Shown in pieces: positions 4,096 through 6,068 of a stretch of DNA of 64,000 bases. Numbering within the stretch: the first letter of the stretch is position 1; each line of letters begins with the position of its first letter. Source of the stretch: Sphingomonas sp. CROZ-RG-20F-R02-07 (GTDB lineage Bacteria > Pseudomonadota > Alphaproteobacteria > Sphingomonadales > Sphingomonadaceae); the NCBI RefSeq assembly GCF_022662335.1, contig NZ_JAKNQJ010000002.1:248001-312000 (forward strand), read 5' to 3'. The notes beneath the pieces are model-generated. The model was not told the DNA's origin. It worked only from the letters and a program-made list of their open reading frames with translations, and made no database searches. A program made the position numbers and the translations under genes.

Positions 4096-4365
4096 ATGAA
4101 GCCCAAGCCCGATCCCCAACAATCGATGCAACGCGTGAAGGTCGGCATGATCGGCCTCGCTGTCGTGATCCTGCTCATCGGCCTGGCCAGTGCGATCATC
4201 GGTTCCGCCACCCACGAGCGGCCGCTGCCGTCGATCGGCGCCCCCCATGCCGATGTCATGGCCAACATGGCGCTCGCCAACGAAGCCGCCGCGGGGCCGC
4301 TTGCCGAACTGGGTGTCGCCCCCAGCGCCGACAATGTCCAGCCGGCGGCGGGAGGCGCGCCGTGA
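4096..4365 (+). CDS. small single-pass membrane protein of unknown function
   Basis: 89 residues. A basic N-terminus (KPKPDPQQSMQRVKVG) precedes one strong membrane helix at about residues 17-37 (MIGLAVVILLIGLASAIIGSA). The short remainder is Ala/Pro-rich and ends in PAAGGAP. The orientation is probably cytoplasmic N-terminus, periplasmic tail. It lies between cysK and the dcw promoter, 46 bases after cysK. I do not recognise a named family. Length, RBS-proximal ATG and a good membrane segment make it a credible gene. Confidence 0.7.
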   Translation: MKPKPDPQQSMQRVKVGMIGLAVVILLIGLASAIIGSATHERPLPSIGAPHADVMANMALANEAAAGPLAELGVAPSADNVQPAAGGAP

Positions 4366-4371
4366 GCCGTC

Positions 4372-4386
4372 GGGGATTTCCGGGGA
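4372..4386 (+). promoter_or_regulatory. two GGGGA boxes ten bases apart, possible distal MraZ sites
   Basis: GGGGA at 4372 and again at 4382, separated by five bases. The spacing matches the repeat period of the larger array at 4464-4507 but in the opposite orientation. Just past the stop of the small membrane protein. Two copies could occur by chance in this GC-rich sequence. Confidence 0.3.
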
Positions 4387-4463
4387 TCGCGGTTCCTGCG
4401 GTTCTTGTGTGACGGGCGACGTGCCCGCGCTGCCACCGGATCGGCACCATTATCCGGCGTGAT

Positions 4464-4507
4464 TCCCCGGCCATCCCCAAAAATCCCGTTGCGTCCCCGG
4501 CGCTCCC
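4464..4507 (-). promoter_or_regulatory. five-copy ten-base direct repeat, probable MraZ operator of the dcw cluster
   Basis: TCCC begins at 4464, 4474, 4484, 4494 and 4504 on the + strand, i.e. GGGA boxes every ten bases on the - strand; three of the five read TCCCC. E. coli MraZ binds direct repeats of TGGGN separated by five bases in front of its own gene, the same ten-base period. The array lies 117 bases before the mraZ start, where autoregulation is expected. A GANTC site (GATTC, 4461-4465) overlaps the first box. Confidence 0.7.
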
Positions 4508-4623
4508 TTGGTAACCAGCGTTAACACAGGGGCAGGCTTTACCGTTCGTGAAAAACGATCCGGTGGGCGGCGATCAGCCGCCTTCCGGGCGGTCGGGTCG
4601 TGCACGCCAAACGCGAGGTCGGC

Positions 4624-5124
4624 GTGTCGGACAGGGAGTATTATCAGGGCGATGGCATCGGTCTTGTCGACGACAAGGGCCGGGTCGCGATCCCTGCATC
4701 CCTGAGATCGGTTCTGGCGACCAACGCGCCCAAGGCGAATGGCAAGGACGGGGGCACGATCGTGATCGGCGCCCATCAGAAGAACCGCTGCCTCGTTGCC
4801 TATGATCCCGGCTTCGTCGCGATCCTGGCCGAACGGCTGGGGCGACGCGAGGCGGAGAACACCCGCGACGATGGTGAATTCGACTATAACATCAAGCGTC
4901 GTGCGTCCTCGGGCGAGGCGGTGCCTTTCGACGGATCGGGGCGCTTCATCATGCCGGCATTTCCGCGCTTCTATGCCGGCATCAAGGGCCATGCCTTCTT
5001 CTATGGCGTGCTCGACTATATCGAGATCTGGGATCCGGCGACGTTGATCGCGACGCCCGACATGCCCGACGTCGTCAAGGAGATGGCGCGCTTCTACATG
5101 GCGGAAAAGGGTGTGGCGTTGTGA
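4624..5124 (+). CDS. mraZ: transcriptional regulator MraZ
   Basis: 166 residues with two SpoVT-AbrB-like halves, each marked by its conserved turn: [13 protein letters not shown] near residues 16-28 and [13 protein letters not shown] near 105-117. MraZ binds DNA as a ring-shaped oligomer at tandem repeats and controls the dcw cluster it heads. The GTG at 4624 is chosen over an in-frame ATG at 4600 because GAGG sits five bases before it; either is possible. The gene overlaps rsmH by four bases. The ten-base repeat array upstream is its likely target. Confidence 0.95.
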
Positions 5125-6068
5125 GCCAATTCCCGCATATCCCCGTTCTGCTCGACGAAGTCGTCGCCGCGCTCGCGCCGGCCCCCGGCGAGACGATGGT
5201 GGACGCCACCTTCGGTGCCGGCGGCTACACGCGGGCGTTGCTTGCGCGCGGCGCCTGCGTGGTCGCGTTCGATCGCGATCCGGACGCGATCGCGGCGGGG
5301 CGTGCGCTCGAGGCCGAGGAGGACGGTCTGCGTCTCGTGGCGGCGGATTTCTCGCGGCTGGAGGCGGCGCTCGATCGGCCCGTCGACGGCGTCACGATGG
5401 ATATCGGCGTGTCGTCGATGCAGCTCGACCAGGCCGGGCGCGGCTTCTCGTTCCAGGCGGATGGCCCGCTCGACATGCGGATGGCGCAAGTGGGCATGTC
5501 CGCGGCGGACTTCCTGAACGAGGCCGACGAAGAGGCGATCGCCGACATCCTCTATCGCTATGGCGACGAGCCCAAGTCGCGCCGCGTCGCGCGGGCGATC
5601 GTCGCCGCGCGGCCGCTGACGCGCACGTCCGAGCTGGCGAGCGTCGTTCGTCGTGCGCTCGGCCACCGCCCGCACGACAAGAAGGATCCCGCGACGCGCG
5701 CGTTCCAGGCGATCCGCATCCATGTGAACCGCGAGCTGGACGAGCTGGCCGAAGGGCTCGCTGCCGCCGAGCGCGTGCTGAAGCCCGGCGGCCGGCTGGC
5801 GATCGTGACGTTCCACAGCCTGGAGGACCGGATGGTCAAGCGCTTCCTGCGCGACCGTTCGGGCGGGGCGCCGGCGGGCTCGCGCCATCTGCCGCAGGCG
5901 GATGCGGGTGCGGCCGCCAGTTTCGAGAATGTCGGTCGCGCGGTGCGCGCCGGCGAGGACGAGGTCGCGCGCAATCCCCGCGCACGATCGGCGACGCTCA
6001 GGACGGCGCGGCGGACCGCGGCCCCTTCCTGGACGAACACACCCTGGGCGAACGAGGTGACGGCATGA
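5121..6068 (+). CDS. rsmH: 16S rRNA (cytosine(1402)-N4)-methyltransferase
   Basis: 315 residues. RsmH (MraW) methylates C1402 in the ribosomal P site using S-adenosylmethionine. The N-terminal [13 protein letters not shown], the SAM loop [14 protein letters not shown] (about residues 28-41), [25 protein letters not shown] and, near the C-terminus, [18 protein letters not shown] are all family signatures. Translation starts at a GTG within a GTGA overlap with mraZ, and the stop overlaps ftsL as ATGA. It is the usual second gene of the dcw cluster. Confidence 0.97.

Follow-up and report, generated by a model that had tools for sequence, protein, structure and literature searches.

What does the array of phased TCCC boxes directly upstream of mraZ do in Sphingomonas? 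The DNA analyzed here (hereafter, the window) is a stretch of 64,000 nucleotides from Sphingomonas sp. CROZ-RG-20F-R02-07. MraZ is a regulator conserved very widely among bacteria, and its role in the cell is not yet clear. The E. coli protein was reportedly found by Eraso et al. in 2014 to bind TGGGN repeats with a 10-base period, and a first-pass annotation of the window had suggested that the array is an operator of the same kind. Comparison with related genomes supports this reading: the array is very probably an MraZ operator because of its position, its 10-base phase, its uniqueness in the genome and its continuity with CCCAT arrays (ATGGG on the minus strand) across the class. The kind of operator is already known; the new parts are a variant with a changed core and a candidate leader RNA. 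The features discussed are summarized in Table 1.

Table 1. Features around the start of mraZ in the window. Counts out of 50 refer to anchored members of the genus.
Feature	Position	Strand	Remarks
Box 1	4464-4467	-	GGGA on minus strand; TCCC in 33/50, CCC in 39/50
Box 2	4474-4477	-	TCCC in 45/50
Box 3	4484-4487	-	Directly 5' of presumed -35; TCCC in 43/50; used as anchor, CCC present by construction
Box 4	4494-4497	-	Overlaps 3' end of presumed -35; TCCC in 39/50
Box 5	4504-4507	-	Inside -35/-10 spacer; not conserved (TCCC in 3/50, window included; CCC in 9/50)
Presumed -35, TTGCGT	4489-4494	+	By eye; TTG common in relatives
Presumed -10, TAACCA	4512-4517	+	By eye, 17 nt after -35; TA common in relatives
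Candidate structured mraZ leader RNA	4525-4626	+	Begins near the presumed transcription start, ends with the start codon; model R1, 73.8 bits; covariation
Hairpin P3 of leader	4560-4588	+	11 pairs in the model, all showing two-sided changes across the 53 matches
Possible hairpin P4	4603-4626	+	Shine-Dalgarno-like GCGAGG in loop, GTG start codon in stem; 99.2% of cells paired
mraZ	4624-5124	+	GTG start likelier than 4600; relatives converge on GTG 4624 by eye
rsmH (mraW)	5121-6068	+	PF01795, 292.6 bits

The phased array and its gene context

The five TCCC boxes start exactly ten bases apart (4464, 4474, 4484, 4494, and 4504), as had been annotated, and adjoin mraZ, the first gene of the division cluster, on its 5' side. 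The five-box pattern matched once in the window and not at all in 100 dinucleotide-preserving shuffles. Single TCCC-N6-TCCC pairs are less remarkable than the whole array: seven occur in the window, four of them inside the array, against 2.6 expected, and one shuffle in 100 reached seven. When both strands of the genome (3,897,669 bases) were searched, four TCCC at 10-base steps gave two overlapping matches and three such boxes gave three, all inside the array, so that even runs of three occur nowhere else in the 3.9 Mb. Controls with the reversed pattern yielded no match in the whole genome for either the three-box or the four-box search. The array thus has the 10-base direct repeats expected of an MraZ operator. 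The TGGG or GTG core, in contrast, is absent in register from the window boxes, which read G/C/A-GGGA on the minus strand; in box 2, a TGGGG occurs shifted by one base from the register. Between a small upstream open reading frame and the array lies a hairpin resembling a terminator, with a tail rich in T (4381-4398; one found versus 0.3 in shuffles).

The protein encoded behind the array is MraZ. In an hmmscan of the protein, Pfam PF02381 scored 35 bits, above its cut-off of 23; the NCBIfam MraZ models also matched, with scores below their equivalog cut-offs. The DxKGR-type loops of both MraZ halves (VDDKGR and FDGSGR) are invariant in 19 aligned sequences including that of the window. When the genome was searched in six frames with PF02381 at E 0.001, the window MraZ was nevertheless missed, although hmmscan passes the cut-off; sphingomonad MraZ is therefore divergent and can be wrongly scored as absent. 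The longest open reading frame starts at 4600, probably 24 bases too early. An AlphaFold model of the protein was discarded owing to its mean pLDDT of 46.7.

mraZ was detected in 59 of 61 genus genomes and in 110 of 118 genomes of the order. Among the ten genomes without a profile match, rsmH was found in four, all with a divergent mraZ before it by eye; no genome with rsmH but without mraZ, in which loss of the array could be compared with loss of the gene, was found among those searched. A second, divergent MraZ-like gene was seen in five inspected genomes (L135-L139, corresponding to G046, G057, G011, G004, and G106), and further genus genomes show weaker second matches. By eye, the upstream regions of these five copies lack the TCCC array, and a GAACGGTTCATCG motif is common to four of them. 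The mraZ-rsmH regions of L028 (Microvirga sp. SRT01) and L041 (Arthrobacter sp. TPD3018) group with Sphingomonas, and these assemblies are probably mislabelled.

For the comparison among relatives, 72 mraZ places at genus level and 111 at order level were located, and upstream DNA was read for 61 and 57 of them, respectively, in addition to that of the window. In total, 163 upstream regions were read and thinned to 125 non-redundant ones, the five second-copy regions having been dropped before counting. In these, TCCC pairs at spacings of 10, 20, and 30 bases numbered 192, 116, and 60; any other spacing from 4 to 30 reached at most 18, and mononucleotide shuffles gave 0.61 at spacing 10. Runs of at least three TCCC were found at period 10 in 54/125 regions, at period 5 in 3/125, and at periods 6-9 or 11-15 in none. 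The annotation had named loss of the 10-base spacing in relatives as evidence against its reading; in the mraZ upstream regions compared here the spacing is kept.

The individual boxes were counted in the 79 of 125 regions that could be anchored at the presumed -35, with an anchor that favours the TCCC-richest register. Runs of five boxes are confined to the window, L061, L111, and L112 among the 125 regions, and the conserved array consists of four boxes, the fifth (4504) not being a conserved part. Three off-phase controls for CCC at box 5 gave zero. The suggestion that five copies, compared with three in E. coli, confer special strength was not borne out, since the genus keeps only four of them and Burkholderia was already known to have four repeats (PMC7761207). 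In L083, L124-L127, and L129, a forward GTGGGG lies one register (10 bases) 5' of the first TCCC box, where TGGG occurs in 9/49 genus members; this GTGGGG is a canonical box of opposite orientation in the same phase as the array.

Relation to known MraZ operators

In E. coli, inspection of the sequence revealed a 10-base GTGGG array before mraZ on the strand opposite to that of the array described here. The two share 10-base direct repeats with a GGG core, directly before mraZ as the first gene of the cluster. The annotated likeness to E. coli TGGGN boxes holds for period and GGG core. It does not extend to the rest: the Sphingomonas array is inverted, has four conserved boxes, has mostly lost the TG in register, and surrounds the presumed -35 instead of following the -10, as the E. 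coli repeats do by eye and according to PMC7761207. Binding of E. coli MraZ to its operator is also mentioned in PMC8475190.

Binding of MraZ to 10-base repeats before mraZ is described for other bacteria as well (PMC7761207, PMC5282649). The Burkholderia cenocepacia promoter PmraBc carries four 7-nt repeats with 3-nt spacers, studied by EMSA (PMC7761207), and resembles the Sphingomonas array in period, repeat number, and position before mraZ. Its repeats contain a GTG motif, follow the -10, and overlap the transcription start, whereas the array here lies further upstream and is without GTG. The Mollicutes site, (AAAGTGKN3)3 (PMC5282649), likewise consists of period-10 repeats before mraZ, but its GTG core is A-rich and lies on the forward strand. 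In Alphaproteobacteria, mraZ is mentioned in several papers (e.g. PMC9275681, PMC10469942, PMC7240162). Among the titles and abstract openings searched, with subscription papers mostly outside, nothing concerned alphaproteobacterial MraZ boxes or a Sphingomonas mraZ leader, which is weak evidence of novelty.

A sample of the class, consisting of 70 of the 124 genomes with a match and lying entirely outside the order, connected the array to the canonical type. CCCA pairs at spacings 10, 20, and 30 numbered 134, 86, and 45 in the 70 regions (counts that retain at least 7 stretches inside mraZ, due to misplaced starts), while forward TGGG at spacing 10 occurred twice. In-register boxes read CCCAT, i.e. 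ATGGG on the minus strand, in 161/226 cases. CCCA was present in 201/226 in-register boxes of the class sample versus 20/275 in the genus. The class arrays thus consist of inverted ATGGG boxes with the known TGGG core and, judged by eye, overlap the promoter; in other families, again by eye, the phase spans the spacer, the -10, and the start. The array in the window would be the same element placed further upstream, over the presumed -35. In the family of the window, taken as Sphingomonadaceae, the core has mostly lost its TG, leaving C/G-GGGA on the minus strand. The promoter was not found by a sigma-70 consensus scan, and the elements listed in Table 1 are presumed to be those of mraZ-rsmH.

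The MraZ loop, competing explanations, and a proposed mechanism

The box core varies together with one residue of MraZ. Where a serine stands two residues after the arginine of DxKGR, CCCA was found in 256/286 boxes, whereas without this serine it was found in 39/364 (179 promoters, with a few loops misread by the parser). Among 13 loop positions, this one was the most informative, with 0.71 of 1.0 bit. Family lineages that keep the serine (g7, g12, g13, and, nested in the genus, the pair L081/L120) have mostly kept CCCA; L102 is an exception to the association. After reparsing of the set with RsmH, 110 promoters had all data, and 9 of these were discordant; in this set the register of the boxes can be misassigned, as in L050. 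In the RsmH tree, 5 changes of the loop residue and 11 of the box type are needed, with three independent pairs on supported branches and five on all branches; a phylogenetic sign test of the link was not significant (median p 1, range 0.5-1). The loss of TG in the family hence appears to coincide with a change from serine to alanine or valine in the DxKGR loop, a strong correlation with few independent events. The loop and box changes may be causally linked. With the phase retained, the core altered, and a candidate specificity residue at hand, MraZ-DNA recognition would become directly testable by swaps of residues and boxes among related bacteria.

These data bear on whether some other regulator of the division cluster binds the array in place of MraZ. 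The family has mostly lost the TG core that known MraZ boxes carry, and the product of the second MraZ-like gene in the five inspected genomes could bind instead. We consider this unlikely: the position and phase of the array are continuous with those of canonical MraZ-type boxes, the array is single-copy in the genome, its boxes covary with the MraZ loop residue, and by eye it is missing upstream of all five second copies.

Very unlikely is a G-quadruplex formed by the five minus-strand tracts of three to four G with loops of 6-7 bases, with this structure and not MraZ binding being selected and regulating transcription. A canonical quadruplex motif, defined by four tracts of at least three G and loops of no more than 7 bases, fits the window and 48/73 genus regions, and a quadruplex in the S. 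aureus mraZ promoter, with similar motifs in other bacteria, is described in PMC11796246. However, the motif is found in 9/27 regions of the family's other genera, 2/25 of the order's other families, and 31/70 of the class sample, while exact 10-base steps persist as by far the commonest step (52, 32, and 140, respectively). A quadruplex requires no fixed phase, and by eye the boxes degrade to ACCAT or GGCAT yet keep theirs. The rarity of the motif in the order's other families, where the 10-base step stays, favours a protein that reads the phase. Least credible is a purely contextual reading, in which a C-rich, phased promoter setting that serves DNA bending or sigma contacts has been conserved along with the -35 and no dedicated regulator is involved: the well-conserved boxes 3 and 4 do flank and overlap the presumed -35, but the phase reaches 25 bases upstream of it here and covers spacer, -10, and start in other families by eye, and even three such boxes are unique to this site in the genome.

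The best joint explanation, which we regard as probable, is that the array is an MraZ operator on the gene's own promoter, repressing mraZ-rsmH and the cluster, with a changed core and a leader RNA behind it. MraZ forms a ring that contacts DNA through a loop. At this operator, the ring would dock its DxKGR loops along one face of the DNA, one box after another every 10 bases; the docking sites would be the four conserved boxes, which read mostly C/G-GGGA on the minus strand. Docked MraZ would cover the presumed -35 and exclude RNA polymerase, which would repress mraZ-rsmH together with the cluster that follows. The operator type would be that of the inverted ATGGG boxes found in promoters across the class, moved further upstream in the family of the window and altered from a TG core to C/G-GGGA along with the loop change. 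The folded leader RNA following the operator would probably add a level of control, over how stable the mRNA is or how its translation starts.

A candidate leader RNA

The transcribed stretch between the presumed transcription start and the mraZ start codon is a candidate new leader RNA. Its structure was drawn on 22 closer, self-chosen genus sequences, with 20 pairs that were partly chosen by hand; in these sequences, 91.7% of cells were paired, versus 38-42% with the partners slid. At E up to 0.05, the resulting model matched 53 of 100 sources, once each. By coordinates, each match lies just 5' of mraZ; genus members account for 52, and the remaining one, L085, belongs to genus g12. In its own genome the model matched once, among 150 scored of 6873 first-look candidates, and in 85 sources outside the genus no match was obtained at E below 0.29.

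Two-sided changes were present in 19 of the 20 pairs among the 53 matches, and the covariation score was 0.597 versus 0.263 in shuffles and 0.08-0.11 with slid partners; both values come from an alignment fitted to the model and leaning towards it. A plain, sequence-only alignment of 64 leaders (9 of 73 having been dropped for a misplaced start) yielded no consensus pairs. The single-sequence fold is mildly stable (z -1.78), and 14 of 200 shuffles fold as well. No two-sided changes were seen in hairpin P4, which encloses the start codon; P4 is an alternative fold, compatible with the data and not proven. None of 4227 Rfam families matched the 64 kb at gathering level, and between 4300 and 4800, at E up to 5, the only match (15.6 bits, minus strand, 4300-4349) lies outside the leader.

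A structured, transcribed leader before mraZ has a counterpart in another alphaproteobacterium. In Rhodobacter sphaeroides, the dcw leader contains UpsM, an RNA of 206 nt with a terminator, within a 268-nt leader (PMC5089854). The same source describes the long terminator-bearing leader as exclusive to Rhodobacteraceae, with 70 nt or less in most other species. The Sphingomonas leader differs from that of R. sphaeroides: it is approximately 100 nt long, ends at the start codon, and contains no site resembling a terminator. It may act on mRNA stability or on the initiation of translation. Standing first in the division cluster, such a conserved leader would give cell division in a large environmental genus a further, so far unexplored, level of control.

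A more far-reaching version, tentative and somewhat doubtful in our view, combines the two elements. In Sphingomonadaceae, the core would have changed from ATGGGA to C/G-GGGA in step with the replacement of serine by alanine or valine, with MraZ reading a box that lacks TG, and a leader RNA, newly evolved and covarying, would provide a second, RNA-level control of the Sphingomonas division cluster at the mraZ start codon. Within the leader, GGGGCA near the 5' end pairs with the stretch before the start codon, spanning the length of the RNA.
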